Assembly (NCBI GenBank): GCA_001801215.1 | Contig: MGXA01000091.1 | Location: 1-64,000, forward strand | Reading direction: 5' to 3' | Source of the DNA: Gallionellales bacterium RIFCSPLOWO2_02_FULL_59_110 | GTDB taxonomy: Bacteria; Pseudomonadota; Gammaproteobacteria; Burkholderiales; Gallionellaceae | DNA length: 64,000 nucleotides | The notes under the pieces: model-generated | What the model saw: the letters and a program-made list of their open reading frames with translations, nothing else | What the model was told of the DNA's origin: nothing | Databases searched by the model: none | Translations under genes and position numbers: made by a program | Part shown: positions 30,871-54,456 of the stretch, one piece after another | Numbering within the stretch: the stretch's first letter is position 1 | Layout: the number at the start of each line of letters is the position of its first letter

Positions 30871-31398
30871 ATGGCTTTGGGCCTGAAATGCAAAAAATGG
30901 TTTTGTGGCGGTATATTGCTGGCTCTTGCCATTGCTGTAACGGGTTGCGGTCGTCTGGGCGGCAGCGCAACGCCCGATGAAGAACCGGAAGCCGTCGCCA
31001 AGCGCTTCTATGAATTGATCTCCACTTCCAAGATTGAAGGCGGCACGACACCCGCCAGCGAAGCCTACAAGATGATCGACAGCAAAACCTCCAATCTGAA
31101 CGTGACTCAGTTTCTGGAAATTATCAAGCATTACCCGCCAAATTTTGCGGTGGTTGTAGGGAAAGCGGAGGTTAAAGGAACGCAGGCCCTGGTTCCCATC
31201 AGCTTCAAGATGCCTTCCAGCTTTGGCGGCGAGTATACGGTACAGGAAGTGCTGCCCCTCAATATCGACCCTGCTACCAACACTTGGAAAATCGACTTTA
31301 CCGGCGATACTTACGGTATGCAAAAAGACGAGGCAATCGAGGCGAGCCAGCGAGAAGCGCCTGCGCAGAAATCCGAAGCGCCCCCGGGAGGTAAATAG
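30871..31398 (+). CDS. Predicted lipoprotein of unknown function
   Basis: Lipobox VTGC; located between cytochrome b genes. Confidence 0.6.
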   Translation: MALGLKCKKWFCGGILLALAIAVTGCGRLGGSATPDEEPEAVAKRFYELISTSKIEGGTTPASEAYKMIDSKTSNLNVTQFLEIIKHYPPNFAVVVGKAEVKGTQALVPISFKMPSSFGGEYTVQEVLPLNIDPATNTWKIDFTGDTYGMQKDEAIEASQREAPAQKSEAPPGGK

Positions 31399-32744: not shown

Positions 32745-33974
32745 ATGAGAAACCCGTTTAATTTTTTTCCACATAACGGACTGATATTTCTGCTGTGCGC
32801 TGCGCTCATCGGCAGCGGGACAGCTTCCGCACAGGGAATGCACGATCATGGCGACGGCAAGCACCAGACTCAATCGTCTTCGCCAGTCAGGGACGTAGCC
32901 TTACCCGAAGGAATCGGTGCGACCCAGTCGATTGCCATAGACTCGAACGGCTGGGTCTGGTTTACCGAGAAGGCGGGCAATAAACTAACCGCCTACGATC
33001 CGGAAAAACAGAAGTTTGCGACCCACTCTCTTCCCCCATCATGGGGCGATATGGGATTTTCGAATATTACGCTGGGCGCGGACGGGGAAATCTGGTTCAC
33101 CGTAAACCGGCGCGCAGAAGGTGCGGATAATCCGCACATACTGGGACGGTTTACGCCTGCGGACGGATATTTTACGAAATATGCCCTCCCGCACAAATCC
33201 GCTCCGGAAGAATTGATAGTGGACGCCAACGGCACGATATGGTTTTTTGCCTCCAATAAAAACAACCTTTATCGCATCGACCCCAAGACTTTCGCGCTGA
33301 AAGGCTACCCCATCCCTACCGCCAACGGGCATCCCAGAGGGTTGGCTGTCGATCAGAAAGGCCATGTCTGGTTTGCCGAATCCAATGCCAATAAAATAGG
33401 CCGCTTTATTCCCGAGCAGGAGGTGTTTCATGAATATGAGGTGCTCACGCCGTTCGCCAACCCGGGAAAAATCTCCATCGACCATCATGGCAATGTATGG
33501 TTTGTCGAGGTAACGGCAAACAGGATTGGAGTGTTTCACCCGGACCGGAACCGGTTCAGCGAAGCCATTATCCCCACCCCCGGCAGCGCTCCTGTCGCGC
33601 TGGTGAACGACGGCGATGGCAACGTCTGGTTTTTGCAATACAAGGGGAACAAGGTTGGCGTGTTCAATCTGGAAACAGCAGCCTTTCGCGAATATGACAT
33701 TCCCGCTTATAACAGCCTGCCGGCAGGCATCGCGATTGACCGCAAACGATCCACACTCTGGTTCACTCAAAGCGCCACAGAAGCGAAGAGCCTGGGGATG
33801 CTTTCCATTAGCGAAGCCTTGGCGCACGGCAACAAACAGGGCGCAGTGCTTGAAAAATCAGCTGCGGCAGGAGGAGGCATGCCCAACTGGTTTGTTTTGC
33901 TTGCCGTGTTGCTGGCCGTCGCGGCGCTGGGCGGGTGGTTGGCCTGGAAATCCCGCAAAGGTGTGCGCCCGTAG
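32745..33974 (+). CDS. Vgb-like (streptogramin-lyase-type) beta-propeller with C-terminal TM anchor
   Basis: Repeated G.(V/I)WF(T/A/V)E blades; C-terminal FVLLAVLLAVAALGGWLAWKSRKG. Confidence 0.82.
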   Translation: MRNPFNFFPHNGLIFLLCAALIGSGTASAQGMHDHGDGKHQTQSSSPVRDVALPEGIGATQSIAIDSNGWVWFTEKAGNKLTAYDPEKQKFATHSLPPSWGDMGFSNITLGADGEIWFTVNRRAEGADNPHILGRFTPADGYFTKYALPHKSAPEELIVDANGTIWFFASNKNNLYRIDPKTFALKGYPIPTANGHPRGLAVDQKGHVWFAESNANKIGRFIPEQEVFHEYEVLTPFANPGKISIDHHGNVWFVEVTANRIGVFHPDRNRFSEAIIPTPGSAPVALVNDGDGNVWFLQYKGNKVGVFNLETAAFREYDIPAYNSLPAGIAIDRKRSTLWFTQSATEAKSLGMLSISEALAHGNKQGAVLEKSAAAGGGMPNWFVLLAVLLAVAALGGWLAWKSRKGVRP

Positions 33975-34066: not shown

Positions 34067-35131
34067 ATGCCGCTCCCGGATTTGCGCTATACCCTGCCGC
34101 CAGGAATCCATATTAAACCGTTTCAACAAGGACGCAACGCAGTGAAAATAGCAGCTGTTTTCTGGGCGGCCCTCGCCAGTTTGCTTAGCTTCCCGTCATG
34201 GGGAGAGGATGCCTTCAAGCCGTTCGAGGTGCCCACAGCTCATACTTACCCGACGAGGATCGCCATCGACAAGAGTGACACAGTCTGGTTCATCGAGTCG
34301 AATTTCAACAAACTCGGAGAACTCCGGCCTGCCAAAGGCGTTTTCTCCGAACACAATATCCCCACGCCCTCCAGCCTCCCATCGGATATAACGGCCAGCC
34401 CGTCGGGCAAGATATGGATAACCGAGTCGGACGCAAACCAGCTCGGTGTTTTCGACCCTGCTTCGCAGTTGTTTAAGGAATACGATATTCCGACAATAAC
34501 GAGCATGCCTTCCCGGATTGTGACCGATCCGCGCGGAAATATCTGGTTTACAGAATTTTATGGCAACAAGGTCGGTATGTTCGATCCACGGCGAGAAACG
34601 TTTCGGGAATATCCGATCCCGACACCCGACAGTCGCCCATCGGGCATCGTCGCGGATAAAAAGGGCTTGATGTGGTTTCTGGAAACCCAGGGCAACAAGC
34701 TGGGCAAGCTGAACCCCAAGAACGGCGCAATTCACGAATTCGAACTGCCAATAGCATTCGAATCCCCAAGGGACATTGTCATAGACAGATCCGGCGTGCT
34801 CTGGTTTGGCGGCCACATAGGACGTAACCTGATGGCCTTCAATCCCGCCACCGAAAAATTCAGATCATTTTCGATGCCGGGCGGTAGCGTAGTCGAAAGC
34901 TTGACTGCCGCAAACGACGGGAAAATATTTTGCACTCTCAGGACAAGCAGCAAAATAGCAGTGTTCGACCCGGCAACCAGTGCGTTTCTGGAATTCGATG
35001 TAGGCGTGGGCAAGAGCCAGCCTAACGGTATCGGCACCGATGCAAGAGGGAATATCTGGTTTGCCGATACGGCAAAAAACGCCCTAGTCAGGCTGGACAA
35101 GGGCATGGTGGGAAAGCTATGGATAAAGTGA
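34067..35131 (+). CDS. Vgb-like beta-propeller protein
   Basis: Repeated blades DTVWFIES, GKIWITES, GNIWFTEF, GNIWFADT; start uncertain (MNTERNAL alternative near 34144). Confidence 0.8.
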   Translation: MPLPDLRYTLPPGIHIKPFQQGRNAVKIAAVFWAALASLLSFPSWGEDAFKPFEVPTAHTYPTRIAIDKSDTVWFIESNFNKLGELRPAKGVFSEHNIPTPSSLPSDITASPSGKIWITESDANQLGVFDPASQLFKEYDIPTITSMPSRIVTDPRGNIWFTEFYGNKVGMFDPRRETFREYPIPTPDSRPSGIVADKKGLMWFLETQGNKLGKLNPKNGAIHEFELPIAFESPRDIVIDRSGVLWFGGHIGRNLMAFNPATEKFRSFSMPGGSVVESLTAANDGKIFCTLRTSSKIAVFDPATSAFLEFDVGVGKSQPNGIGTDARGNIWFADTAKNALVRLDKGMVGKLWIK

Positions 35132-35186
35132 AATTTTCAAGGTGCCGGGAATCGCTGGTCGCCCTGGCATCTGATGAGTGCGTAAA

Positions 35187-35705
35187 ATGAAGAAATCCTG
35201 GTGGGCGATAGGTTCACTTTTTTTTGCAATTGCTGCGGCAATTGGCGTATTGGCCATCCCCAACCCGTTGGGCGAACAGGTGCTGGCAGAAGCCAAGTAC
35301 AGGGGATACATCCCATACACCACGGACGATGCGGTTTCGCTCGCTTACAGCCGATGCACCACCTGTCACAACGCAGATAAAATGCTCAAATATTGCGCCC
35401 GATGCGGGCCTCCTTTTATCGTCACCGTCCATTCCATGAAAAAATATGTGGAATTGCTGAACCAGAAGGGCGGGCAATTCAAGCCATTCTCCGACGCTGA
35501 GGCGGTCGCGATCACACAGGCATGGAACGGCCTGGTCGGCAACTGGGAACCCGGGTGGGGCTTGAAAAACATCCACAAACTCTTGCAAGGCGATCAAGCA
35601 CTGATGCGCCTCGCGGAGACTCCATTGGAGAACAGGCCCATAGAAATGGCGCTGAAGAGCAAGAGCGCGCCGGGCGCCCACAAGGAAACGTTCACGCCGC
35701 AATAA
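35187..35705 (+). CDS. Monoheme c-type cytochrome, membrane anchored
   Basis: N-terminal TM and CTTCHNADKMLKYCARCG. Confidence 0.75.
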   Translation: MKKSWWAIGSLFFAIAAAIGVLAIPNPLGEQVLAEAKYRGYIPYTTDDAVSLAYSRCTTCHNADKMLKYCARCGPPFIVTVHSMKKYVELLNQKGGQFKPFSDAEAVAITQAWNGLVGNWEPGWGLKNIHKLLQGDQALMRLAETPLENRPIEMALKSKSAPGAHKETFTPQ

Positions 35706-36065: not shown

Positions 36066-36557
36066 TCACTTTGATTCTTTATCTTTGTATTTGCACTTGC
36101 AGATGCTGTCCCTGACATATTGAACAATCTGTTTTATCTCAGCGTCGGTAAAAGTATCCTTCCAGCCCGGCATTGCCTCGGAAAGCCCGGCCGAGACCCC
36201 GCCGTGTTTGACGACCTTGAAAAGAAACTCGTCTGTTCTTGCCGATAACAGTCTGGTATCGCTCAATTGGCGTGGGATCACCCCTTCTCCGAGACTGCCC
36301 GAAAGAGGGCCATCGTTTTTTCCGGTCACTCCGTGGCACGGCGAACAATTTCCGATATAGTTGTCCTTGCCTGCCTCTCCGGTATAGGTTCCCGTATTGT
36401 CGGGGTCGAGCTCTATGTGAGAGCGGTTCCTTTCCTTACCCGGCAGCTCGTTCGAAAATCCCGCACCGGGAAAAAACATCATACTCAAACACAGCGCAAA
36501 GGGAACCGCCCCCGATAGAAAGATTTTCATTTTTTTCGTAATTCGACTATTCAACAT
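36066..36557 (-). CDS. c-type cytochrome
   Basis: Signal peptide; NCSPCHGVTGKNDGP; C-terminal M..W.D..TDAEI..IVQYVR. Confidence 0.88.
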   Translation of the reverse strand: MLNSRITKKMKIFLSGAVPFALCLSMMFFPGAGFSNELPGKERNRSHIELDPDNTGTYTGEAGKDNYIGNCSPCHGVTGKNDGPLSGSLGEGVIPRQLSDTRLLSARTDEFLFKVVKHGGVSAGLSEAMPGWKDTFTDAEIKQIVQYVRDSICKCKYKDKESK

Positions 36558-36587: not shown

Positions 36588-38042
36588 CTATTCGGCGGCA
36601 ACACCCATAGCTCCCAGACCGCAAACAGTCTTCGCGCGGCACTCCGCTTCCTCGCGCCGCTTCCTCTCGACAGAAGGCCAGTGCCGCGCACCCAGAATAC
36701 GATCCGCGACGGCATGGCTACAGACAAGGCGGTCGCGCACCGATACCCCGCCCCGGTAGTTGGCCTCGAGATGGAGGCCGGGAATATGTTGCAGGCGTGC
36801 CGAGATGGCCTGCATGCGCGCCTGGTAGGCACCGTGATACATGGGGAGCGCCTCGCCGTGCCTGTCGATGCGCACCATTTCCGGATCGGCTTTCAAACCT
36901 ATCAACGAGCGCAATGTTCCAAGCGCCTCATCCAGCAGGCGCGCGTCGTCCCAGTCCGCCACGTGTGGGGCACGCGCGCCACCCAGATACGAAGTCAATA
37001 GTGCTTTCCCCGGCGGCGCACGGTCCGGAAACAGGGTGCTCATCCACAAATTACCCGTCAGGGTCGCGCTTTCCCCCTTCGGCGCAAGGAAACCGGCGCC
37101 ATCCAGCGGGTGCTGCACAGCATCGCGCGCCACCCCAGTATGTACGATGCTCACCGGGGCATAGCCGATTCCCCGCAGCAATTCCGCCAGCTCGTTGTCC
37201 AGCGGATCGACCAGCGCCACCGCCGCAGGCGCGGGGGTCGCCACGATCACATGAGCTGCGCTCACGCTGCGCTGCCCATGCGGCGTTGCCGCCGTGGCCT
37301 GCCAGCCATCCCGCTCGCGCGCCAGTTCTTGCGCGACATGGCCGGTGCGCATGTTGATCCCTGGCGTTTTGGCCAATGCCTCCACCAGGCTGCCCATGCC
37401 GTCGCGGAAGGAAAAAGTTTCGGTAACGCTGGCGGTGCGGCGGCGCAATATGCGGTTGACCAACACTCCGGCACCGATGCTGCCATAGCGCTGCTCCAAT
37501 GCCATCAGGCGCGGCAGAACGGCGGCGGCGCTGGCCTGGTCCGCATCAGCGGCCAGCGTTCCGGCCACGAAGGGCTCCATGGCTTTTTCCAGCACTTCGC
37601 GGCCAAGCCGGCGCGTGATGAACTCGCTGACCGTTTCGTCGGTTCGCCCGCTGGAGAAGATAAACGGTTCGGCGAGCAGGCGCAATTTGCCGCGCAGGCT
37701 CCACAAGGGCGAGGCCACCATGGGGCTCAAACGCATCGGCAATGCTTTCAGGCACCCCCGATGCAGCAGGTAGCGGCGTACCTCGGCGGCAGGCTGGCGT
37801 GCGGTCTTTGCCGGTTCCAGCCCCGCCTCGCGCACCAGCTCCGCTACCTCGGGGCGGAAATTCAATACCATGGCTGCGGCGCGTTCGGTGAGGTAGCCGT
37901 CCTGCCGGGTGCTCATAATCTTGCCGCCCGGTCGCTCGCCGGCTTCCCATACCTCGACGGATAGGCCGCTGCGCGCCAGCCACCACGCGGAGGCCAGCCC
38001 TGAAATGCCGCCGCCAATAATGAGTACGTCAACTTTATGCAT
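36588..38042 (-). CDS. HemY-like protoporphyrinogen oxidase family FAD protein
   Basis: VLIIGGGISGLASAWWLARSGLSVEVWEAGERPGGKIMS; C-terminal GLHLEANYRGGVSVRDRL. Confidence 0.8.
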   Translation of the reverse strand: MHKVDVLIIGGGISGLASAWWLARSGLSVEVWEAGERPGGKIMSTRQDGYLTERAAAMVLNFRPEVAELVREAGLEPAKTARQPAAEVRRYLLHRGCLKALPMRLSPMVASPLWSLRGKLRLLAEPFIFSSGRTDETVSEFITRRLGREVLEKAMEPFVAGTLAADADQASAAAVLPRLMALEQRYGSIGAGVLVNRILRRRTASVTETFSFRDGMGSLVEALAKTPGINMRTGHVAQELARERDGWQATAATPHGQRSVSAAHVIVATPAPAAVALVDPLDNELAELLRGIGYAPVSIVHTGVARDAVQHPLDGAGFLAPKGESATLTGNLWMSTLFPDRAPPGKALLTSYLGGARAPHVADWDDARLLDEALGTLRSLIGLKADPEMVRIDRHGEALPMYHGAYQARMQAISARLQHIPGLHLEANYRGGVSVRDRLVCSHAVADRILGARHWPSVERKRREEAECRAKTVCGLGAMGVAAE

Positions 38043-38084
38043 CGCTATGCCGCCGGCTTGTGTTTTATTCTAACGGGCCGAATT

Positions 38085-40223
38085 TTACTTGTTTGATTTG
38101 AGTTGCGCCTTCATTTTTTCGAGCAAATCCCGGCCCAGCAGATCGCCGGGGTTTTCCCGTGCCGCAACGAAACTCCTGATGGTATCGAAGCGCTTGTCGG
38201 CTTCGGGATTGTCCTTGAGGCGCGGCACGCGATCGCGCGCAATCTCGTAGGCGTTGAAGCTCAATTCCTGCATCCCGAACCCCTTCATGCGCTGCACCGC
38301 ACGCATCATGGCGTTATTGCGGAAGCGCGTCAGGTCGGCGGAAGTGATACGCGCCAGCCCCTCCTTGCGTGCATTGAACTCGGCGGCCTTCTTGATGCCG
38401 GCGCGGTTGAAATCGGGCGCGGACAACACGCGCGCCAGCGCATCCTCGTCCCACTCCACACCGCCAGTCAATTGCGCGATGGCTGCCTCGACATCGGTCG
38501 ATTCCACGGTGGCCGCACGCCGTTTTCTGGTGAAGCTCTCTGCGGCGCCTTCCAGTGCGGGCGCTACGAACATGCGCACCTGGGGCGCCTTTTCGGCAAG
38601 GAACACCGTAAGCAACTGGTCGGATTCATCCGCCCACTTCAAACTGCGACCAGGCTGCTGTTCCGATTCCAGCCGATCCAGCAGCTTGATATTGACTTCC
38701 AGCCTGCCCTCGGAACGGGCGACATCCTCGGCGATCGCACGCACACCTTCCTGCAAAAAGGCGGGCATGGCCGCGAGGCGTTCGCGCGCCTGCTCGCTCC
38801 ACGGCAGCTCACCGTTTATATGAAACTCGCGTAGCGATTCGTTCGCCCCCTCTCCCGGGTGCCCTGCCAAAAGCTTTTCGGACTCCGGGGGAGGGTTGGG
38901 GTGAGGGACGCCGATAGCCTGCACGCCTGCTATTTGGTTTGCTTCCCCTCGTGTATTTGGTCTGGGTGGCCCGTCGCTGCCGAAACGTCTGGCGGACAAG
39001 ACCGCGAGATGCTCTTCCGTAACCGTATCCAGTCCCAGTTCCTGCACGTAACTTTCGGCGCGGCTCTTGACCATCTTGCGCAAAAAGGACGGAACCCGCG
39101 ACAGGCGCTTCTCCGCCTCCTCACTCCATGCCAGTTTCTTCGACTGCTCGGCCAGCGGTTCGATGACGGCAGCACCTTCCGGCACATGAACACACCATGG
39201 GTCGGTATCCATCAAGCTTTCGCCCATCGCGAGGGGCCGCGCACGGCAACCGCCGCACAACTTCCGGAATTCGCAACTGCCGCATTTGCCTTGCAACTTG
39301 GGTTTGCGCAGGGATTGGAAGGTGGGCGATTGATCCCAGATATCCCAGAATTTCTTGTCGCGGATGTTGCCGTCTTCATTGGGAATATAGGGACAAGCCG
39401 TAACGCCGCCCTCCGGTGTGACGCGGCAATAGTGTATGCCCGCGAGGCAACCGCCGCCTTCGTAGCCCGCGGCGCGGGTGAGCGTCGATGCAGGGTTGCG
39501 CTGATAGGCGATGCGCTTGTAATGGGGGGCGCAGCGCGCACGGATCAGCAAGTCCCGGCTCTGTTCCTGCGCCGCCACCAGTTGGTTGAGCACCCGCTCG
39601 TACGTGACGGGGCTGATATCCGACATGGATTCACCGCGACCGGTACACACCAGGAAGAACACGTTCAGCACTCGCGCCCCGGAAGCCCGGGCAAAATCTA
39701 TCATGCCCGGCACTTCGTCGGCATTGGATTCGGTGACGGAAAAATGGATCTGGAACGGCAAGCCGTGGCGCTTGCAGGCCTCGATACCCTGCATGGTTTT
39801 CTCCCACGCGCCCGGCAGGCCACGGAAGGCGTCGTGCTTTTCGGGGTCGAGAGAATCGACACTGATACCTGCGCCCATCGCACCGGTAGCCTTCAGCGAT
39901 TGCACGCGCTTATCGGTGAGCGCCACACCATTTGTCCCCACCACCATGGCAAGGCCAAGTCCGGCACCATGCGCCACCAGTTTTTCCAGGTCGCCACGCA
40001 GCATCGGCTCACCGCCGGTAAGCACCACCATGGTTTCCGTGCTGCGTGCCGCGATATCGTCCAGCAGGCTGCACACCTCTTCCGCCGTCAGTTCATTTCT
40101 ATCGCCATGCTTCATGGTTTCCGCATCCATGTAGCAATGGGCGCAGGCGAGGTTGCAACGGTTGGTCAGATTGATGGCGAGCAAAAACAGGCTGCTTGCA
40201 TCGCCGGTGCGAGATACCTCCAT
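38085..40223 (-). CDS. Radical SAM/SPASM protein (NirJ/Ahb-like) with C-terminal PCP_red-like repeats
   Basis: CNLACAHC, SPASM CGSCEFRKLCGGCRARP, three W(S/D)E.A..RL...P.F.R repeats. Confidence 0.82.
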   Translation of the reverse strand: MEVSRTGDASSLFLLAINLTNRCNLACAHCYMDAETMKHGDRNELTAEEVCSLLDDIAARSTETMVVLTGGEPMLRGDLEKLVAHGAGLGLAMVVGTNGVALTDKRVQSLKATGAMGAGISVDSLDPEKHDAFRGLPGAWEKTMQGIEACKRHGLPFQIHFSVTESNADEVPGMIDFARASGARVLNVFFLVCTGRGESMSDISPVTYERVLNQLVAAQEQSRDLLIRARCAPHYKRIAYQRNPASTLTRAAGYEGGGCLAGIHYCRVTPEGGVTACPYIPNEDGNIRDKKFWDIWDQSPTFQSLRKPKLQGKCGSCEFRKLCGGCRARPLAMGESLMDTDPWCVHVPEGAAVIEPLAEQSKKLAWSEEAEKRLSRVPSFLRKMVKSRAESYVQELGLDTVTEEHLAVLSARRFGSDGPPRPNTRGEANQIAGVQAIGVPHPNPPPESEKLLAGHPGEGANESLREFHINGELPWSEQARERLAAMPAFLQEGVRAIAEDVARSEGRLEVNIKLLDRLESEQQPGRSLKWADESDQLLTVFLAEKAPQVRMFVAPALEGAAESFTRKRRAATVESTDVEAAIAQLTGGVEWDEDALARVLSAPDFNRAGIKKAAEFNARKEGLARITSADLTRFRNNAMMRAVQRMKGFGMQELSFNAYEIARDRVPRLKDNPEADKRFDTIRSFVAARENPGDLLGRDLLEKMKAQLKSNK
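38838..38915. repeat. C-rich/G-rich palindromic intergenic-type repeat embedded in the radical SAM coding sequence
   Basis: ccctctcccgggtgccctgcc...ccgggggagggttggggtgaggg; encodes VPHPNPPPESEKLLAGHPGEGANES. Confidence 0.65.
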
Positions 40224-41995
40224 TATTGGCCCGCGTCTTGGGGGTTCTTTGCTTTTTTACCGAAACCAAACGGGCAACTGCCCTTGGCAGCCGGTGCGTT
40301 TTGCCCCTGCATGGTTTTTTCCATTTCGCCGCGTGCTAGTTTAAGGCCGTTTTCCGCCACCTCCAGGGTGATTTCGGTATGGCCATTTTGCCGTGCAAAA
40401 TTCTCGATGCTCTGCTTGCACCGCTCGCGCATGAAACCCTCCGGCACGCGCATCAGGCGCGCCAGCGCGGCGGCCTGCCAATGCAGTTCCGCCGCTACTG
40501 GCTGATCCAGTGTTTCCGCATCAATGAACGGCTTGATGTGCCGTGCTTCGACCACGGCAGATTTTTCCTGGCGGGCTTTTTTCTCGGCGCGCATGCTGAG
40601 GTTGCCGCGCACCGCAAGGTCTTCGATAGTGCGCAACAGCGCAACCGCGTCATCTGACCAGCGCATGACCTCATCCGCCGCAGGCTTGCGCTTCAATTCT
40701 CCCGCGTCGTAGGCCGCGACGATTTCCCCCATGGCCTGTTCCGCATGGTTGGGCATGAGTTGCGCGGTCGCTTCGTCCACAATTTTCCGGGTGATGACGG
40801 TGTGGCCATGCTCCTGGGCGTAGCGCATGATGGCCATGCGCGCCATGTTGCGGACGAAGGAAGGCACCCGCTCCATTCTGGCTTCGGCTTCATGGGTCCA
40901 TGAGGTGGTGACGCCGGACACAACGTCGATTTTGGGCTGATATTCGCGCATGCTGAGCAGAATTGCGCAGTCCGCGTTTTCAAGCAAATGCTCGCTATTG
41001 CCGCCGATATCGAGTTCGTCGTCGGCATGGATGCCCACCTTGCCGACAACCAGCAGCGACGGTTCGACTTTCCTGACATATTTTTCGATGGCATCGTGAG
41101 GTTTGCCATCCAACAGCTCGGTTTCTATTTCAACGCCGAAGTCTTCGGCAATGGAGTGTGCGACTGCCAGATGGCCGTCGTATATCTTTGCCAGCCCGGA
41201 ATCGATGATCTCCTCGTGCAGTTTTTCCTGCTCCTTGAATTTGAACACCTTGCCCGCCTCTTCGGACAGCACGCCCGCAATACGGTTAAATGCAACGTAA
41301 TGATAATAAGGGTCGAAGGCGGCAATCACCTTGACCGGAACCCGCCAACCTTCGGCTAGCGCCAACGCGGTGAGCAGACCTCCATAGGCTTTTGCCGAAC
41401 CATCCACCGCGACGACAATCGGGCCTTCCTTGATCGAGCGGGCTGTATTCTTGATGACCAGCGTATCGATAGCCGAGCGCCGCGCCGAACGCCTGCATAC
41501 GGTACCCAGCCGGCTTCCTTTTATTGCGCCAAGCCCCAAGGCCCCCATAACGAGCAAGTCGTATCTGCCAGAATTCGTTTCCCGCACGAGTTCGCGGTAA
41601 TTTTTACCTTCCAGCGAACTGCGTTTGAATTCGATACCGAGCCGGGCGCATTCATTTGCCGCCTGGTCCAAGTAGGAGTCGGTGATGATCGACAAGCCGC
41701 GGGTGATCAGATCGTCATGCACATCGCGCTGGCGCTCCAGTTCCTGCTCCTGCCGGAACTGTTCGGGCAAGCCCCCTTCCATCTGGCGGAAGCGCATGTC
41801 ATGCAGTTTGGCGGCATAAACATGGGAACCTGTGATCACGGGTGCATCCGCCATACATGCCAATTCCGCAGCATCCCGCATGGCGGCATTGGCATAATCC
41901 GATGAATCCAGCGCAACCAGAATGTTTCGATACAAGCGGGTGTTCTGCGATGTGTGGGACTCTCCGGCAACGGCCAAAGAAACTTGGGGCGTCAT
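40223..41995 (-). CDS. UspA universal stress protein with C-terminal PCP_red-like repeats
   Basis: NILVALDSSDYANAAMRDA, second UspA-like half, then TSWTHEAEARMERVPSFVRNMARMAIMRYAQEHG and two weaker repeats. Confidence 0.82.
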   Translation of the reverse strand: MTPQVSLAVAGESHTSQNTRLYRNILVALDSSDYANAAMRDAAELACMADAPVITGSHVYAAKLHDMRFRQMEGGLPEQFRQEQELERQRDVHDDLITRGLSIITDSYLDQAANECARLGIEFKRSSLEGKNYRELVRETNSGRYDLLVMGALGLGAIKGSRLGTVCRRSARRSAIDTLVIKNTARSIKEGPIVVAVDGSAKAYGGLLTALALAEGWRVPVKVIAAFDPYYHYVAFNRIAGVLSEEAGKVFKFKEQEKLHEEIIDSGLAKIYDGHLAVAHSIAEDFGVEIETELLDGKPHDAIEKYVRKVEPSLLVVGKVGIHADDELDIGGNSEHLLENADCAILLSMREYQPKIDVVSGVTTSWTHEAEARMERVPSFVRNMARMAIMRYAQEHGHTVITRKIVDEATAQLMPNHAEQAMGEIVAAYDAGELKRKPAADEVMRWSDDAVALLRTIEDLAVRGNLSMRAEKKARQEKSAVVEARHIKPFIDAETLDQPVAAELHWQAAALARLMRVPEGFMRERCKQSIENFARQNGHTEITLEVAENGLKLARGEMEKTMQGQNAPAAKGSCPFGFGKKAKNPQDAGQ

Positions 41996-42257: not shown

Positions 42258-43205
42258 TTAATTTTTAACCTTCAGCGTGACATTGCTCGCCTTATCCCTG
42301 TTGCCGCCCTCGACATATCCACCGCCGATCAGTTCAGCGCCGCCACGCCCTGCCAGTTCGGATTCCATCAACTCCTGGAGTTCCTTGAAGTCGGGGTGCG
42401 TTGCCGCATTGAGCGCATCGACGTCGCCCTTGATCGGCTTGAAGGTCGACTTGGGGTTAAGGTATTCCTCGACGGATTTCGGCGGTTTGACATCCTGCAT
42501 CGCGCGGATGAAGGCGACCACGTTCCAGATATCCTGATCCATCAGGACGTTGCCCCAGTTAGGCATCGAAGAGGAAAGCGCCAGGACTTCACCGCCGCCC
42601 TTGATTATCGCAAACAGCTCAAGATTGGTCTTCTTCTGCATGTAGTCGCCACGTGTCAACGTCCTTGGCCGCGGGTTCAGGTCGATGGCGCTGGGGCCAT
42701 CGCCGTGCATCATCCAGCCATGACAGGCGATGCAGTAGGAGTAATACCATGTCTTGCCCTGATTTGGATCGGCGCCTGCAACAAGCGTTGCGTCGAACTT
42801 GGGTGACCAGTTGTTTGTCCACTGGTCGTACAGGGCAGCCCCCTGAGCCGGATTTTTCACCCGATCCCACAATTCCGTCCTTGCGGAACCATCGTCGGCG
42901 CCATAGCCGCTGCTCGTTTTATAGGTCTTTGCATCGACTTTGGCGCGCTTGCCCACCCCGGTCAGGTAGTCGAACGGCGCAACACCGTAAGTGCTGCCCC
43001 CTTTGCCTGCGCCCATGTCGTTGGCTTCTTTCTCGAAGTTTTTCGCTGCCGCATTGAGATCCTTATCGCTTTGCGTCGGGCACTCCACCTTCACCCCGCC
43101 AGCCGTGCAACGTTTCTCTCCCGCCGCAAAAGCTGTCGAACTCCCCCACACCATACCTAGGCTTGCCATTGCTACCAGGTATATTTTCAAATTGTCTTTC
43201 TTCAT
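42258..43205 (-). CDS. Secreted monoheme c-type cytochrome with long N-terminal extension
   Basis: Signal peptide, CIACHGWMMHGDGPSAIDLNPRPR, MPNWGNVLMDQDIWNVVAFIRAM. Confidence 0.88.
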   Translation of the reverse strand: MKKDNLKIYLVAMASLGMVWGSSTAFAAGEKRCTAGGVKVECPTQSDKDLNAAAKNFEKEANDMGAGKGGSTYGVAPFDYLTGVGKRAKVDAKTYKTSSGYGADDGSARTELWDRVKNPAQGAALYDQWTNNWSPKFDATLVAGADPNQGKTWYYSYCIACHGWMMHGDGPSAIDLNPRPRTLTRGDYMQKKTNLELFAIIKGGGEVLALSSSMPNWGNVLMDQDIWNVVAFIRAMQDVKPPKSVEEYLNPKSTFKPIKGDVDALNAATHPDFKELQELMESELAGRGGAELIGGGYVEGGNRDKASNVTLKVKN

Positions 43206-43279: not shown

Positions 43280-45046
43280 TTACAGCCCCTTCACGCGTTC
43301 CGCTACCGTGATCTGCCCCTCTTCCATCAGGCCAGGCAAATGCTGCGCTTCGGCATAGTCACCCACCGCGAGGTTGGAATTTCCCTTCTTGGGATCGTCA
43401 ACGAAGAAGGTCGCTCTCATTTCCAGGTGCAATGGGCCGCAGAAGTGCGTACAGAAAATTTCATATTCCCCGGCGATATCTGCGACAAACTCATGCACGG
43501 CGGTCACGCCGCGCGGAAGATCCATGTTGGTTCTCAAGCCATAAGGGCCGTAGACGGTCAAACCCATGGTGACGTCAGGATTCTTGGTGATACCTGCCGC
43601 CTTGTCGATATTGGTGGCAAACAACCTGACCTTGTCGCCCTTGTTCACCCTCACCTGGCGGGGAATGTAGCCGTAGCTGAAGGCTTTCATGTGAATTTCT
43701 TTGACGCCATTGACAACCTTGATGCCCGGCGGTGTATTGTCCTTCGGGATCACGTACCTCTTTGACTTCGCCCGGTGGACAGGGTCGAGAACTTCCGTCA
43801 TGCCCGCTTTCAGCAGGCCGCCTCTCTCTGCCTCGCCTCTGGTCCAATCCTTGATCAAGTAAGCCATGATGCTCTTGGCATTATGCGGCTCGCCATCCAC
43901 CGGCATGATCTTCAAAGTCTTGCCGTAGGTTGGGCTCTTTTCCCGCGCATCCCACATTTCGAAGTTGACCGGATACACGATACCCGTCGGGCTGAACAAT
44001 CCCGTCGAGAACTTGTTCAACGCCATCACATAGGAGTTGTCCGCAGAAATGGAAATATGGCCTGTTCTATAGTGTGTCGGGATTTCGTCGACCACTTCAA
44101 GTTTTTTCAGATCCACTTTCACGTTGGCATCCGCCACGAAACAGCTTTCGTAAGCGTACTTGGAAGTCAGGCCTTGCGCGCTGTCTATGCCTGGCCTGTA
44201 AGATCCGCCGTCCTTGTTATATACATCCATGACCGAATGCAGAGGTCCCGCGCAGGTCGGCAACACTTTCTTGACCGCCAGTTTTTCGGTATCGATGATG
44301 GACATGGTCGCCGAGAGCTTATCGCTCACCAGAACCATGGTGCCTTCCGGTATGACGTCGACGCCATGCGGGTTCTTGCCCACCGGTATCGACTTGACCA
44401 GCTTGAAAGGGTTGGTGGAAAACACGCCTACTGCCGAGTGGTAATAGTTGCCGGAGTAAATGTACTTGCCGTCCTTGCCCGCATCCAGATAGTCAGGCGC
44501 GCTCGGCGAGGGGCCCCAGTCGATCACCTCGGTTTTCCCCGAGGCGATATCTGTCTTGGACATCTTGCCGGAATATTCGCCTGTACCATACAAAGTCTTG
44601 CCATCAGCGCTCAGCGCGATATGGTGAACCCCGAACGGGAAAGGCAGAGCGATAACCCTTTCCATGTAACCTGTCTGCAAATTGAGTTCGCAGATCGTAT
44701 TGGCGCCCTTGTCGTTGACGTAGAGGTATTTGCCGTCCGGCGTTCCATTTTTGTTACCCGCCGGGCTGCCGCTAAAGACAACCTCATGCAAGTCAACGCC
44801 GCAATCGATGTGCCGGTAGGTTTTAAAACTGGGGATACCAATGATCGCCACCTTGCCGTCCACACCGCCGGACGAATATAGCAACATCGGATCCACGGTC
44901 GGATTATCCTTGGCATTCGAAGCATCTACCGCCGCATTCTGCCATCCCGGAGTGACCACCTTTTTTTCAGCGGCGTTGGCCGTTCCCAAAACCAAGCAGC
45001 TCGCCGAAAGAGCGCCCACCATTAAAAATTTAGTTTTGCTTTGCAT
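43280..45046 (-). CDS. Divergent nitrous-oxide-reductase-like (NosZ-like) beta-propeller plus cupredoxin protein, Sec-type signal
   Basis: KNPHG, GPLHS, THYRTGH, LNKFSTGLFSPTG, GEPHNA and CTHFCGPLHLEM; start refined to MQSKTKFL. Confidence 0.8.
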   Translation of the reverse strand: MQSKTKFLMVGALSASCLVLGTANAAEKKVVTPGWQNAAVDASNAKDNPTVDPMLLYSSGGVDGKVAIIGIPSFKTYRHIDCGVDLHEVVFSGSPAGNKNGTPDGKYLYVNDKGANTICELNLQTGYMERVIALPFPFGVHHIALSADGKTLYGTGEYSGKMSKTDIASGKTEVIDWGPSPSAPDYLDAGKDGKYIYSGNYYHSAVGVFSTNPFKLVKSIPVGKNPHGVDVIPEGTMVLVSDKLSATMSIIDTEKLAVKKVLPTCAGPLHSVMDVYNKDGGSYRPGIDSAQGLTSKYAYESCFVADANVKVDLKKLEVVDEIPTHYRTGHISISADNSYVMALNKFSTGLFSPTGIVYPVNFEMWDAREKSPTYGKTLKIMPVDGEPHNAKSIMAYLIKDWTRGEAERGGLLKAGMTEVLDPVHRAKSKRYVIPKDNTPPGIKVVNGVKEIHMKAFSYGYIPRQVRVNKGDKVRLFATNIDKAAGITKNPDVTMGLTVYGPYGLRTNMDLPRGVTAVHEFVADIAGEYEIFCTHFCGPLHLEMRATFFVDDPKKGNSNLAVGDYAEAQHLPGLMEEGQITVAERVKGL

Positions 45047-45699: not shown

Positions 45700-47238
45700 T
45701 CAATGCTGCCTGCCAGCGGCCCTGCCGGCGCTGCGCGCCCACCAGAGCAGGCCGCCCGCAAACAGCACCATAATTGCTAACGCCGCGACCAGCGGCCTGG
45801 AACCGGTTGCCGGTTTTAACAGCAACCAATACCAGGTGGTCATGGTGTGCTTCGAGCCTTTTTCGCTGTTATTGCTGCCATCCCAGGCAGCGAATGCAAC
45901 CGGAATAAACTTGCCCTCGGCGAACTGGATATCCTTGTCCGCCGCTTGGGTAGTGAGCGGGCGGTACATCAGCACCTTCCAGGTTCCGTCGCTATAACTC
46001 GAAACGGTCTTGAGGCCGACCGCTGCCGCATCGCGCTTCTCGATCGCTTTGAATCCGAGGCTGTTGAGAAGATTGGCCGCTTCCGGCTCGCTCTTCGTGC
46101 CGCTCTTCCAATGCCAGATATTCACCGGGTGCGACTCATCGCCCATGCCAAAATAAGGCTTGCGCATTTCCGTGGGAATCACGACCGGCAACTGCACGGC
46201 AACACCGTCTTCCGCAATGGGCTCATCGGCAATCTTCTCCGCGCTCTCATCTCCCGGGATGCTCTTGGTTCGATCATCCCATTCCATGAGTAGCGCAACC
46301 ATCTTGTCGTTGTACATGGCGCGCACGATGATGGTGTCATTGGACGGTTTGAAATAACGCTCCTCGCCGATTATCTGGGGAACCAGATAAAAGGCGGTCG
46401 GCACAGATTCATTCCAGCGCTTGTCATCCGTCGTAGCCGGCAATTCGCCTTCCACCTTATCCGCTTTAATGACCGTATTCTCGGCATTGACAGTCATGCC
46501 GGTCTTGGCCAAGGATTCCACATAGTTGGCCACATGCCAGCGCTCCTCAACCGAGAGTACATTTTTGCTCTTTGGGTCGGCGAACGATGGCATCTCCGTA
46601 CCGGCAATGCCGGTGGATATACGCGTATAAATATCTTTTGGATCGCTACTGCCAATGAAAGTCCATGGCTTGGTCAGGTTGCGCGGCCAGGTGCGCTCGC
46701 CGCCGCCCCCTTTGAGCCGCTTGCTGGCGCTGCCCTTGCCGCTCTTGCCATGGCATTCCACACAACGGTCGCCGTCTTCGAAAAGTTTTTTGCCCTTCTC
46801 GATGCTCTCTGCCGAACTTTTCACCTGCGTACCGTAATCGACCTGTTTTTCGGGCGGCTTATCGAAACCGGCGAAGGACTTGAGGTAAGCCGCCAGATCC
46901 CACATTTCCTGCTCGGAAAGCAGATCGCTCCAGCCCGGCATGGCGGTTCCCGGCATACCGTCGCGTATCATGCGGAAGATGTCATCGTCATTAGGCGTCA
47001 TATCTTCAAAACTGGAAGTTTTGATCTTGTAATTGCCGGACGTAAAGTCACGCGGCGGGGGATTAAGATAATCCTGAGCCGCGCCCGCGCCGTCGCCTTC
47101 GGCACCGTGACACCAGGTGCAACGCTTGTCGTAAACTTCCTTTCCCTTGTCGGCGTTGCCGGGTTTCGCCATCGCCGTTCCTGCCGCAAATAACGCAGAG
47201 CAGAGAGCGAGGAGCGCCAGTTTGTTTTTATAAGTCAT
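45700..47238 (-). CDS. Diheme c-type cytochrome with EB_dh / NxrC-gamma-like heme-b-binding domain and C-terminal TM
   Basis: CTWCHG, CVECHG, then YNDKMVALLMEWDD, YFGMGDESHPVNIWHWKSG, GTWKVLMYRPL, IPVAFAAWDG. Confidence 0.82.
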   Translation of the reverse strand: MTYKNKLALLALCSALFAAGTAMAKPGNADKGKEVYDKRCTWCHGAEGDGAGAAQDYLNPPPRDFTSGNYKIKTSSFEDMTPNDDDIFRMIRDGMPGTAMPGWSDLLSEQEMWDLAAYLKSFAGFDKPPEKQVDYGTQVKSSAESIEKGKKLFEDGDRCVECHGKSGKGSASKRLKGGGGERTWPRNLTKPWTFIGSSDPKDIYTRISTGIAGTEMPSFADPKSKNVLSVEERWHVANYVESLAKTGMTVNAENTVIKADKVEGELPATTDDKRWNESVPTAFYLVPQIIGEERYFKPSNDTIIVRAMYNDKMVALLMEWDDRTKSIPGDESAEKIADEPIAEDGVAVQLPVVIPTEMRKPYFGMGDESHPVNIWHWKSGTKSEPEAANLLNSLGFKAIEKRDAAAVGLKTVSSYSDGTWKVLMYRPLTTQAADKDIQFAEGKFIPVAFAAWDGSNNSEKGSKHTMTTWYWLLLKPATGSRPLVAALAIMVLFAGGLLWWARSAGRAAGRQH

Positions 47239-47257
47239 CTTTTTTCCTAAACGCAGA

Positions 47258-48043
47258 TTATTCATGTTCCCACGTCCTTGGCCTTCTGCCGGTATAGTCG
47301 TATAAGAACAGGATTACTTTCCATGTCTCGTCTTCCGTTATGAAATTTTCCCAGATAGGCATGGATGAAATCCACGGTGCAGCCTCATCGGGCAAGCCCG
47401 GGCCACCCGTTGCGATACGCCAGAACAGGAACGATTCCTGCAACTGCGCGATGGTGCCCACGTCCTGGAAATTGAGCGGTGTGGGATTCAAGCCAGGGGC
47501 GTAAGGCCCCTTGCCGTCCAGTTTATCGCCGTGGCAATACTGGCAGTTCTTGATATAGACGTCCCCGCCTTCTCTGACATGCTCCTTGAATTTCGCCGGG
47601 TCTTCCTTCTCGAATTTACGATAAGGGTTTTCCAGCTTGGTCAGGTCGAAACTCTTGCCATATGCCTTGAACTTGTTCGGCGGCGCGGGGTGGATGGTGC
47701 GCAATTCCGTCGGAGGATCGAAACTAGGCAGCATGCTCGAATAGGTGTAATACCCTGCCAGCAACGGCACAATAACGAACACCACATTCCGGATATTCCT
47801 CTTGGACGGGTCTTCGACCAACGCCTTGATAGGCGCAGTCAATTCCCGCGTGCCCTCTTCGGTAAAGGTGTACACCATCAACACCCCGGACACCACGAAC
47901 ACCATATACATGGTGAGCAGGCTCTTGGGAATCAGTTGCCCCAGCAGCACGTCGAAAACTAGGATAAAGCCGAAGTAAGTCCCGAATATTACCAGCGCCA
48001 TCTGCAACAACAGCGGGATGCGTCTTTTCTGTGTCGTATTCAT
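47258..48043 (-). CDS. Membrane-anchored c-type cytochrome
   Basis: TM segments then CQYCHGDKLDGKGPYAPGLNPTPLNFQD. Confidence 0.88.
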   Translation of the reverse strand: MNTTQKRRIPLLLQMALVIFGTYFGFILVFDVLLGQLIPKSLLTMYMVFVVSGVLMVYTFTEEGTRELTAPIKALVEDPSKRNIRNVVFVIVPLLAGYYTYSSMLPSFDPPTELRTIHPAPPNKFKAYGKSFDLTKLENPYRKFEKEDPAKFKEHVREGGDVYIKNCQYCHGDKLDGKGPYAPGLNPTPLNFQDVGTIAQLQESFLFWRIATGGPGLPDEAAPWISSMPIWENFITEDETWKVILFLYDYTGRRPRTWEHE

Positions 48044-48597
48044 TATTCACATTCCTTGGATTTGGCTGATTCTGCGCCTTCTGCGGAGGCGTCCATCGTT
48101 GGAATTTGAACGGTCACTTCGCTGCCGCTCAAATCCTGGAGATAGGCGATGACAGCTGCAAGCTCAATCTTGGTCAGCCCGACACTGCTGCCAGTGGCAT
48201 CAGGCATGGGGCTTACGGTGTCATTGGTGCCCTTCTTGCCGAACCCCGGAACCACATAAACAGAAGGGCTCACCGATGACTCGTACAGGTATTCTTCGAC
48301 CGTTTTGGCCGTACCTTTGTATGCGGGGCTCTTCAGGGTTTTTTCGGCGTCCGCAACAGCCTTCTCCAGCATCGGCGCCCGTCCCATTTCGTTGTGGCAC
48401 AGCGTGCAGTCCCCTTTGCCGTCGAAAAGCTCCGCCCCGAGGGCGATGAATTTTTCCATGGTCATGCTGCCCAAATCCACCTTTGCCTCGACGGGCGGCG
48501 GTGCCGGCTTGATCTGCGGAATGCCAAAACTGGAATATCCCCAAAATGCACCCACCGTCAACAGACTGAAAATGCAAACCTTAATAAAATTGGTCAT
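48043..48597 (-). CDS. c-type cytochrome
   Basis: Start MTNFIKVCIFSLL; CTLCHNEMG; ATGA overlap with upstream gene. Confidence 0.85.
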   Translation of the reverse strand: MTNFIKVCIFSLLTVGAFWGYSSFGIPQIKPAPPPVEAKVDLGSMTMEKFIALGAELFDGKGDCTLCHNEMGRAPMLEKAVADAEKTLKSPAYKGTAKTVEEYLYESSVSPSVYVVPGFGKKGTNDTVSPMPDATGSSVGLTKIELAAVIAYLQDLSGSEVTVQIPTMDASAEGAESAKSKECE

Positions 48598-50435
48598 GCC
48601 TGCTGCTCCTTCCAATAACCCTTGGAAACAACATGTTTACCGCTGACCGTACTCAGCCAGAATACAAAGATAACCATGGCCATGAATATGATCGTCCCGA
48701 TCGATACGATATTTGCCACGTAATCCAGACCGGGGGTAAAGGCATCGGGAGAGCCATCGCGGAACATGTTGTATACATGCCAGTGCTGTCGAATACCGGA
48801 GCGAACGTAACCCATCAGCCCCATCAGCCAGGTGAAAGACACAGCCAGCAGGAACAGCGCGTATTGCGAACGCGGCGGCATGCGTCCCCAGCGTAAAGGC
48901 GCCACATCTTTCGCGCCCTTGTACATCAAGGCGTCAATGATCACACTGACGATGATGATAACCAGCGTGGTCAATACCTGAGGTATGGAGGCCGCTATTT
49001 TGATCACCGTGTTGGTGAAATAACCGTGATAAACACCCAGTATCGTGATGTTGATCGAGCCCGCGACAAACAGGGCTACCTGCGCCGCATTGCCGACCTT
49101 CGCCCAGGATACGGTGACAAATTTATTGGAGCGCCGGTAGAACATGAAGCTCAGGTAAGTAAACAGGATCAGGAAGTTCACCGCAGTATTTTTCGCCGGC
49201 ATGATGCCCAGGACTCCGAGGTACTTGTGGTAGGGGCCGCCCAGATCCTTAAGTTCTGAATTGGTGAGCACCAAGGTATGCGGCGTGAACCATACCAGGA
49301 AAGAAACAACCAGCACGACGGCAATATATTTGATCCAATGGTTGTAGCGATGGGCGCCTTCGCTGCGCCCCATGCCGCACCACAGATAATAGTTGGCCGA
49401 CAGGAACAGCGCGCCGATCAGCACGGCCTGGATAATGAATATCCAGGCAAATACGCCGCCCATCAGGGTGATGCCCATCTGCTGGCTGTAGGCGTACATT
49501 TCGGCGGTGAGGTAATAACCGGCGAAGGGCAGCGGCAACAACGCGCCGATGGCAATAAAGTTGGCGTTGTAGCCCATCCAGTCATAGTGTGCGCGCTCTT
49601 CCTTGTTCTTGGCGCTGAGAAACTTGAATGCCGCATAGGCGCCCACGATCGAGCCGCCGTACGCAACGTTGGCGACTGTCCGGTGCAGGTTGATGGGGTT
49701 CCACAGGAAATTATGAATTGCGGCCCAGGTATCGCCGTTGAATACGCCCGCCGCATCCAAAGCAGCCGGACTCATCATGAAAGTTGTCCAGGCATTTGCC
49801 AGGAACATCAGCAGGAGGCCGAACGCATTGAGCAATAACCCAAGGGTCAGGTGCACCCATTTTTTGTTCCCGCCCTGCAACCAGTGCCAACCGTAATAGT
49901 AAATATACAGAACCGCACTCTCGGCGAAGAACAGCAGCGCGTACGCAAACATGCTCTCCTTGAAAATTAACGCCAGATACTGGAACAAATCCGGATAGAA
50001 CAGGATCAGGCAGAAGGACAACAAGCCTCCCAGCAGAGCGGTCAGCGAATAGGCGGTAATGGTGACCTTGATGAATTCATAGGCCATTTTGTCATAGCGC
50101 TGTTCACGGGTCGCCATGCCGATCGCCTCGATGATGAACACAAACATCGGCACCGCCACCACAAAAGCGCCGAACCAGAGGTGCAACTGGGCCACAAGCC
50201 ACACCACCACCCTGGCATTCACGCCCTTTATGGAGGGATAGTCCGCTTCGGTCAATTTCGGGGCTGGTGGGAAAATTGCCTTTGTGGCGGGCGCGGCAGC
50301 GTCCGGCACCGCTGTTGACGCGGTCGCGGCGGCCTCGGATGCATTCGCTGCAGGCATGAATGCGGACAGCATGAACATGGCAAAAACAGCCAGTAAAAAT
50401 GCCCCGCAGGTTATCCTTATATTCCGTGTTAGCAA
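48594..50435 (-). CDS. CydA-related bd-like oxidase subunit I
   Basis: VAQLHLWFGAFVVAVPMFVFIIEAI, LLFFAESAVLYIYYYGW, INLHRTVANVAYGG; many TM segments. Confidence 0.75.
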   Translation of the reverse strand: MLTRNIRITCGAFLLAVFAMFMLSAFMPAANASEAAATASTAVPDAAAPATKAIFPPAPKLTEADYPSIKGVNARVVVWLVAQLHLWFGAFVVAVPMFVFIIEAIGMATREQRYDKMAYEFIKVTITAYSLTALLGGLLSFCLILFYPDLFQYLALIFKESMFAYALLFFAESAVLYIYYYGWHWLQGGNKKWVHLTLGLLLNAFGLLLMFLANAWTTFMMSPAALDAAGVFNGDTWAAIHNFLWNPINLHRTVANVAYGGSIVGAYAAFKFLSAKNKEERAHYDWMGYNANFIAIGALLPLPFAGYYLTAEMYAYSQQMGITLMGGVFAWIFIIQAVLIGALFLSANYYLWCGMGRSEGAHRYNHWIKYIAVVLVVSFLVWFTPHTLVLTNSELKDLGGPYHKYLGVLGIMPAKNTAVNFLILFTYLSFMFYRRSNKFVTVSWAKVGNAAQVALFVAGSINITILGVYHGYFTNTVIKIAASIPQVLTTLVIIIVSVIIDALMYKGAKDVAPLRWGRMPPRSQYALFLLAVSFTWLMGLMGYVRSGIRQHWHVYNMFRDGSPDAFTPGLDYVANIVSIGTIIFMAMVIFVFWLSTVSGKHVVSKGYWKEQQA

Positions 50436-52489: not shown

Positions 52490-53095
52490 CTATGGGCGGA
52501 TATATGAGAAAAACGCAGCCAAGTCCTGCGGCTCATCCACATCGTGCAGCATCTGCCCGACATGCATCGACCAGCCAAGCTGCCCGATGCGTGCAATAGT
52601 CAGTGCGGCAACGGCAGCAGTGCTCCAGGGTATGTCTTCGAACAGCAAAGAACTGAATTTCCGGAGCCCCAGCAGCGCATAGCCTCCGTCTGCCGTGCCA
52701 TGAATAACTGCATCGTGCTCGCACAATGCAAGCGCGGCTTCGCACAACAAAGCAGCGGACATTTCCACGCAGTCCGTGCCGATCAACAAAACCCGGTCGC
52801 CGCTGTCCAGTGCGCGCTGCGCCGCCTGCGCCAGCCGCTTGCCGAGATCGCCTTCGCCCTGATCGGAAATCTCGATGCCCGCCGGAAGGCGGATGCCGCG
52901 CCATACGGAATGCCGAATTGCCGGGGTGACGCATAACTCGACTGCACCAATCCCGGCATCCATGGCCTCATGCAAGGTATTTAGCAACATCCGCTGCGCC
53001 AGTTCGGCTGACTCTTTCATGCCCAACGCCGGGATCAGACGCGTTTTGGCAAAGCCGGGCTGCGGCGCCTTGGCAAAAATAATTATCCGGGTCAT
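52490..53095 (-). CDS. DUF2064 / TIGR04282-type glycosyltransferase family protein
   Basis: IIIFAKAPQPGFAKTRLIPALG, LLIGTDCVEM, HDAVIHGTADGGYALLGL. Confidence 0.85.
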   Translation of the reverse strand: MTRIIIFAKAPQPGFAKTRLIPALGMKESAELAQRMLLNTLHEAMDAGIGAVELCVTPAIRHSVWRGIRLPAGIEISDQGEGDLGKRLAQAAQRALDSGDRVLLIGTDCVEMSAALLCEAALALCEHDAVIHGTADGGYALLGLRKFSSLLFEDIPWSTAAVAALTIARIGQLGWSMHVGQMLHDVDEPQDLAAFFSYIRP

Positions 53096-53769
53096 CGGTA
53101 TAATTTTGCCAATTCACTGGCAGGCATGCCACGCCAGTACAACCAGCGCAAGCGCCACATCAGCCATATCGTTTTCCATACTCCGCGCGTTTCCCAGCGC
53201 CGCCCCGAGGTAACCGCACGCTCCGCAAGACAAACCGGGCTGGACAATGCCCGCAGCCGCTTCGACAACTCGATATCCTCCATCAATGGCTGATCCGGGA
53301 AACCGCCCACCGATTCGAAGGCGCGGCGCGTCACGAACATGGCCTGGTCGCCGGTTACAATTCCGCTGAGGCGCGAGCGCCAGTTCATCAGCATGGCAAC
53401 CACGCGCAGCATGAACATGCGCCCGTCAATGCGCACGTCAAAATGCCCCCACACAAATTCATCGGCGCGCCGGATAGCCGCTGCGATTGCCTGCCCTGCG
53501 GACGGTGGCAATGCAGTATCGGCATGGAGAAACAGCAGGACATCGCCCTGCGCGGCAGCTGCACCGGCGTTCATTTGCCGCGCCCGCCCACGCCCGGTGC
53601 AAAGCACCTGTGCGCCCGCACGAACAGCCGCTAACTGCGAACCATCCTCGCTGCCGCCGTCCACCACGATTACCTCGGCGCCGCTCGCACGCAGCGGTGC
53701 GAGGTGGGCCAGCAACTCCGGCAACACCTTGGCTTCGTTGAGCACCGGAATGATGATGGAAAGCTGCAT
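53092..53769 (-). CDS. TIGR04283-type family 2 glycosyltransferase
   Basis: SIIIPVLNEAKVLPELLAHLAPLRASGAEVIVVDGGSEDGS, FLHADTALP. Confidence 0.9.
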   Translation of the reverse strand: MQLSIIIPVLNEAKVLPELLAHLAPLRASGAEVIVVDGGSEDGSQLAAVRAGAQVLCTGRGRARQMNAGAAAAQGDVLLFLHADTALPPSAGQAIAAAIRRADEFVWGHFDVRIDGRMFMLRVVAMLMNWRSRLSGIVTGDQAMFVTRRAFESVGGFPDQPLMEDIELSKRLRALSSPVCLAERAVTSGRRWETRGVWKTIWLMWRLRWLYWRGMPASELAKLYR

Positions 53770-53772
53770 GAC

Positions 53773-54447
53773 CTATCCGCGCCGCCGTTGAACCATCTGC
53801 CCGACCCGTTTGGCGGCCAGCGGGAACACCCCCAGCAACGCAAAGGACAGCAGCACCGCAGGTGAAAAAATACCGGACAAACTTTCGATGTGCGCCAGTT
53901 GCGTGCCCGCATTTATGTACACCAGCGTACCCGGCAACATGCCAAGCTGGCTGACCCAGTAAAAAGTGGCGGTGCGGATCCGGGTCAACCCCATCAGCAG
54001 GTTGATCAGAAAAAACGGAAATGCCGGCACCAGGCGCAGCATGAAAAGATAAAGCGCCCCGTCCTTTGCCATGCCCTCGTCGATCCCCTTCAGCATGTCG
54101 CCGAAACGGCGCTGAACCATGTCGCGCAACACGTAGCGCGAAACCAGAAACGCCAGCGTTGCACCGATAGTCGAGGCGAAAGACACCAGCAAGGCACCCG
54201 CCCAGAAACCGAACAACGCGCCTATCGCCAAAGACATGGCGGTAGCGCCAGGCAGTGATAACGCCACGACAGCGACATAGATGAAAAAAACCGCCAAGGC
54301 AGTCAGCCAGGGAGACTGCACCTGCATAGCCGCAAATTTTCCCTGTCCCTCCTTGAGCGCATCCAGTGTCAGGTGCCGGTCGAGGCCCAAGAAAAAAAAC
54401 AGCGCAATGGCCGCAACGATCAGCAAGACGATAACCGTCTTCTTCAT
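53773..54447 (-). CDS. TVP38/TMEM64 (VTT domain) membrane protein
   Basis: LSLPGATAMSLAIGALFGFWAGALLVSFASTIGATLAFLVSRY. Confidence 0.88.
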   Translation of the reverse strand: MKKTVIVLLIVAAIALFFFLGLDRHLTLDALKEGQGKFAAMQVQSPWLTALAVFFIYVAVVALSLPGATAMSLAIGALFGFWAGALLVSFASTIGATLAFLVSRYVLRDMVQRRFGDMLKGIDEGMAKDGALYLFMLRLVPAFPFFLINLLMGLTRIRTATFYWVSQLGMLPGTLVYINAGTQLAHIESLSGIFSPAVLLSFALLGVFPLAAKRVGQMVQRRRG

Positions 54448-54456
54448 GCCGCCCGC

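Follow-up and report, generated by a model that had tools for sequence, protein, structure and literature searches.

What kind of protein is encoded at positions 43280-45046 of this stretch of Gallionellales DNA? Here, "the window" means the whole 64,000-nucleotide stretch that was analysed. An earlier note, made from the letters alone, read the product as a divergent relative of the nitrous oxide reductase NosZ with altered copper ligands, and suggested an electron-transfer or NO/N2O-reactive protein in place of a standard enzyme. The first part of this reading stood. The protein is divergent and its ligands are altered. It is, however, a member of clade III, and an electron-transfer or NO/N2O-reactive role is the less likely one. 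The gene is as follows.

43280-45046, minus strand: L-nosZ, encoding a clade III lactonase-type nitrous oxide reductase of 588 aa (assigned by NF052460, Foldseek and the tree)

L-nosZ starts with ATG and the preceding AAGGGGAGTAATA is a good ribosome-binding site. The product, L-NosZ, has a Sec-type leader with no RR pair, a 7-bladed propeller of lactonase/YncE type and a C-terminal cupredoxin (CuA) domain. In Pfam, YNCE, Lactonase and nos_propeller scored above cut-off and cupredoxin was sub-threshold. All of the NosZ landmarks listed in the earlier note were found in the open reading frame: KNPHG (H227), GPLH (H270), THYRTGH (H325/H330), EPH (H388) and the CuA motif CTHFCGPLHLEM, which spans C532-M543.

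Since these landmarks are shared with ordinary clade I/II NosZ, we considered an ordinary enzyme misread by eye. However, the canonical models TIGR04246 and TIGR04244 gave 159.8 and 112 bits, respectively, both below the curated cut-off of 625 bits. The NCBI model for the clade III lactonase-type N2O reductase, NF052460, matched at 770.1 bits across profile positions 1-480 of 480; its curated equivalog cut-off is 700 bits. In a maximum-likelihood tree, canonical NosZ split off with support of 100/100. The window protein fell outside clade II and grouped with 41 other clade III sequences. Its place was deep inside clade III, beside sequences from Gallionellaceae, Casimicrobiaceae and Burkholderiales. 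Model scores, ligand alignment and tree refute an ordinary clade I/II NosZ, which we give next to no probability. Judged by score and tree position, the window gene is a full-score member of the published clade III family.

Clade III N2O reductases were described by He et al. 2025 (Nature 646:152-160), as cited in PMC13274427, and the family is named in PMC13122619 as well. Citations in these two papers credit He et al. 2025 with reporting N2O reduction for clade III. The enzyme family and its altered ligands are already known and the window protein adds another member. Like the family modelled by NF052460, it has a propeller and a CuA domain, matches over its full length, carries Glu at the H130 position and has a His pair at H141-H142. 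The idea of a lone aberrant protein was rejected, because the ligand changes are common to the family.

The predicted fold is that of NosZ. AF2 models were obtained for the full-length protein (pLDDT 80, pTM 0.83) and, because the former superposed poorly on NosZ as one body (TM 0.49, rmsd 15), for the propeller alone (pLDDT 88, pTM 0.88). The poor superposition is probably due to the placement of the domains in the model. Among the 50 PDB matches that Foldseek listed for each model, all were NosZ. For the propeller, the listed NosZ matches gave a TM of about 0.75 and an rmsd of about 4.

We mapped the copper ligands by alignment with four canonical NosZ sequences (L070-L073), using P. stutzeri numbers for the canonical residues. 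Conservation was assessed with a profile probe. Briefly, single-residue variants were scored against NF052460, for which the full-length wild type gives 770.1 bits. Two sites in the propeller are central.

44783-44785, minus strand: codon for Glu88, at the canonical H130 position, where DLHE aligns with DTHH (alignment, profile probe)

44621-44626, minus strand: codons for His141-His142; H141 is canonical H178 and H142 is an extra family-wide His, a candidate replacement ligand (alignment, profile probe)

The seven CuZ positions map as H129 to H87, H130 to E88, H178 to H141, H326 to H227, H382 to H270, H433 to H330 and H494 to H388. Hence, six of the seven canonical CuZ His are retained, and the His to Glu change at H130 that had been seen by eye is borne out. 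Glu88 is present in every clade III row of the alignment. H142 is adjacent to H141 where the innermost strand of the next propeller blade begins; at this place canonical NosZ has Gly, following H178. In the profile probe, H142A cost 4.6 bits, equal to the losses for true propeller ligands (H87A 4.7, H141A 4.6 and H227A 4.6). At CuA, H540A cost 4.7 and C532A 5.0 bits. E88A and E88H cost 3.2 and 2.7 bits; replacing a fixed Asp nearby (D85A) cost 3.7 bits. By these costs, we take Glu88 to be near-fixed, and H142 conserved, throughout the family.

As H142 is conserved like a true ligand, the simplest reading seems to be that canonical blade II has given up its His pair and the next blade has gained one, so that seven His are kept. 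Alternatively, the protein could be an N2O reductase in which Glu88 itself binds copper and H142 is structural, giving a CuZ of six His and a carboxylate. The near-fixation of Glu88 argues for such a site. However, H142 is as conserved as the proven ligands and sits beside H141, and we regard a Glu88 ligand as doubtful, though well short of negligible. The His-pair reading is preferred here.

Changes at two canonical ligands could also signal a degenerate pseudoenzyme, and related lineages do hold degenerate paralogues (L046, L092 and L093). Such copies, however, lose many residues together, and the window protein keeps the family-fixed ones. We therefore consider a pseudoenzyme very improbable. 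The paralogues differ among themselves. L046 (1186-4614), from Nitrospinota, encodes 1143 aa with a long extra C-terminal domain; it has no CuA and has lost several propeller His, with Asn at 79, 141, 142 and 388. Most of the propeller ligands have been lost from L092 and L093, two remote relatives in Nitrospirota (408-455 bits) whose CuA is complete with its His.

The second altered site is in the CuA domain.

43565-43567, minus strand: codon for Met494, at the position of canonical CuA ligand H583 (alignment)

43418-43453, minus strand: CuA loop codons C532 to M543, with C532, C536, H540 and M543 kept as CuA ligands (alignment)

DVTMG aligns on the DLTHG/DETHG of canonical NosZ, placing M494 at H583, as the earlier note had proposed. 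The remaining ligands are unchanged (C618 is C532, C622 is C536, H626 is H540 and M629 is M543). The claim of about nine extra residues in this region also held; there are six (GITKNP) plus three. Hence, a proper alignment does not restore all canonical His: H130 and H583 are both replaced. Met494 occurs in 47 of the 48 clade III rows that have a residue there, two pairs of rows being the same locus reached twice, and the exception is the degenerate paralogue L046. In the profile probe, M494A cost 1.8 bits and M494H gained 0.9 bits. The window protein thus differs from the NCBI family in one respect: Met replaces the CuA His here and in all intact sampled relatives, whereas the NCBI profile slightly favours His. 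Position 494 is, by this comparison, mixed His/Met across the family and Met-CuA marks a sub-branch, the split being read from variant scores against the NCBI profile and from an aligned sample without Firmicutes clade III sequences.

Met cannot be protonated. A gating role in electron and proton transfer has been proposed for the CuA His (PMC11573801). In P. stutzeri NosZ, single changes in six of the seven CuZ His abolished metalation, with H382A the exception (PMC11573801); hence H130 is among the essential His. It follows that either L-NosZ compensates for its changed ligands or the sub-branch does something else. The latter would make the Met-CuA proteins NosZ-fold copper redox proteins, acting on NO or hydroxylamine or relaying electrons to a bd-like oxidase, that have left N2O reduction behind. 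The mixed state of position 494 lends this some weight: with Met in every intact sampled sequence, the characterised members may be His-type. However, the propeller ligands and the Phe-Glu-Lys conduit (F535, E386 and K345; residues named for NosZ in PMC11573801) are invariant across long tree distances, and we consider a departure from N2O reduction unlikely. Compared with canonical clade I/II NosZ, L-NosZ shares the fold, six CuZ His, the Cys/Cys/His/Met of CuA and the conduit. It differs in having Glu for H130, Met for H583, nine extra residues around the CuA Met and the extra H142.

A further difference from canonical systems concerns maturation. NosD and NosL are thought to be necessary for CuZ. 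The earlier note saw no nosD or nosL nearby; we detected neither at E <= 0.001 in the whole window genome (2.81 Mb, 99.7% complete), and no canonical NosZ was found there. Likewise, no nosF, nosY or nosR, also reported as missing nearby, was recognised among the scanned neighbours of L-nosZ. The lack of detected NosD and NosL suggests that L-NosZ may mature without recognisable forms of either. It would also suit a protein that has abandoned N2O reduction. Cytochrome cd1 nitrite reductase-type genes are present in the genome, however, and NirK gave no match in it; given the cd1-type genes, NO/N2O chemistry fits. Two heme-copper oxidase-like subunits are encoded on contig C48 of this genome (L097 and L098). 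One has no NCBIfam match; they may represent an unusual NO reductase or oxidase.

We also searched 51 genomes for NosD and NosL, all but one (G622) chosen for their clade III gene. NosD scored above cut-off in four: three in which canonical NosZ also exceeds its cut-off, plus G622, whose NosZ is a Tat-type canonical enzyme. Weak NosD-like or NosL matches occurred in several Nitrospirota, Myxococcota and other genomes. In two loci from Myxococcota/Deltaproteobacteria (L036, 9960-11306; L052, 10518-11948), a NosD-like beta-helix N-terminus is fused to cytochrome c and adjoins L-nosZ. Of these fusions, the window cytochrome at 36066-36557 seems to correspond to the cytochrome part alone.

How might electrons reach CuA? 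The following neighbours bear on this.

42258-43205, minus strand: c-type cytochrome of 315 aa, directly downstream of L-nosZ in the same direction

31398-32021, plus strand: b6-type cytochrome b, candidate quinol-oxidising subunit (Pfam PF00033, 124 bits)

32043-32723, plus strand: membrane protein with one CxxCH, after cytochrome b; candidate partner (no Pfam match)

32745-33974, plus strand: Vgb-like propeller protein, conserved with L-nosZ

34067-35131, plus strand: second Vgb-like propeller protein, conserved with L-nosZ

35178-35705, plus strand: small protein that has one CxxCH and is conserved alongside L-nosZ

45700-50435, minus strand: CydA-like bd-type subunit and three c-type cytochromes, of which one has an EB_dh heme-b domain

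We compared 34 L-nosZ loci of at least 10 kb. A homologue of the downstream cytochrome accompanies L-nosZ in 30 of them. As for the other four, the contigs of L032 and L045 end at the gene, that of L036 ends about 5 kb downstream and L046 is degenerate. The cytochrome is likely a dedicated electron donor of L-NosZ, going by this association. The b6-type cytochrome b adjoins L-nosZ in Nitrospirota, Myxococcota and Pseudomonadota loci; together with the CxxCH membrane protein and two Vgb-like propellers, it recurs from Nitrospirota to Gallionella. The recurrence of these genes, with the cytochrome c, suggests a route from quinol through cytochrome b/c and cytochrome c to CuA.

The CydA-like subunit and its cytochromes would suit the alternative in which the Met-CuA protein relays electrons to an oxidase. 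However, this module occurs in just 9 of the 34 loci, being conserved in Gallionellaceae and some others. The subunit matched Pfam PF01654 at only 38 bits and no CydB was seen with the module. It is probably a separate terminal oxidase. Two other gene sets lie nearby. At 36588-41995 (minus strand) are genes for a PPOX-like flavoprotein, a NirJ2/AhbD-like radical SAM protein with three PCP_red domains and a universal stress protein with two; the set resembles tetrapyrrole modification and adjoins L-nosZ, conserved, in betaproteobacterial loci. At 52490-55428 (minus strand) are arsenosugar biosynthesis genes, encoding an ArsS radical SAM protein and a TIGR04282 glycosyltransferase.

Relatives of L-NosZ are widespread and patchy. 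A scan of genome contigs recovered 51 loci, including ones from Gallionella, other Nitrosomonadales, Gammaproteobacteria, Rhodospirillaceae, Myxococcota, Nitrospirota and Nitrospinota. Within the window's own order, L-nosZ was found in 2 of 199 genomes and was missing from the two other genomes of the window's genus in that sample. Such patchiness suggests horizontal movement. A search of a plasmid collection gave just two hits, both of them canonical nosZ of Rhizobium with 24% identity, and the viral contigs searched contained no relative. The relatives live in groundwater and oxygen-minimum habitats; this, with the cd1-type genes, speaks against loss of N2O reduction. A lactonase-propeller NosZ-like protein had been noted earlier in Nitrospirota (PMC11033732). 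That gene, from the MAG nzgw271 (L049), was transcribed in dysoxic groundwater along with denitrification genes (PMC11033732). Its product is 67% identical to the window protein, with the same ligands, and its locus has the same cytochrome b/Vgb-like neighbourhood. In contrast to the window genome, with no detected NosL or NosD, nzgw271 encodes divergent proteins resembling NosL and NosD at other sites in the genome.

We conclude that L-NosZ is probably a respiratory periplasmic N2O reductase of clade III, with a modified CuZ, a Met-CuA and NosD/NosL-independent maturation. In this enzyme, CuZ would be held by H87, H141, H227, H270, H330 and H388, with H142 from the next blade replacing H130. 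CuA would be built from C532, C536, H540 and M543, with M494 in place of the gating His583, and would receive electrons from the cytochrome c encoded at 42258-43205. The clade III membership, the ligand map and its conservation, the shared gene neighbourhood and the lack of detected NosD or NosL were observed directly; we infer N2O reduction by the window protein, the role of H142, the electron route and Met as a CuA ligand.

To our knowledge, N2O, a major greenhouse gas, has no respiratory sink other than the N2O reductases. The copper sites of the newly described clade III, and their assembly, bear directly on the question of which uncultured bacteria, from groundwater or oxidising iron, can remove this gas. 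More broadly, clade III may combine a relocated CuZ His (H142, with a fixed Glu next to H87) with a large Met-CuA sub-branch that reduces N2O, both assembled without NosD or NosL; we hold this wider proposition tentatively, at somewhat below even chances. If true, it would contradict the view, based on variants of the P. stutzeri enzyme, that NosZ cannot do without H130 and a protonatable residue at 583. It would also indicate a maturation route not known so far. With a moved His pair, a fixed Glu, a Met-CuA and no NosD or NosL, CuZ assembly and CuA gating become questions at the level of residues. The lasting interest lies in the copper chemistry and assembly of the family, rather than in a single gene.
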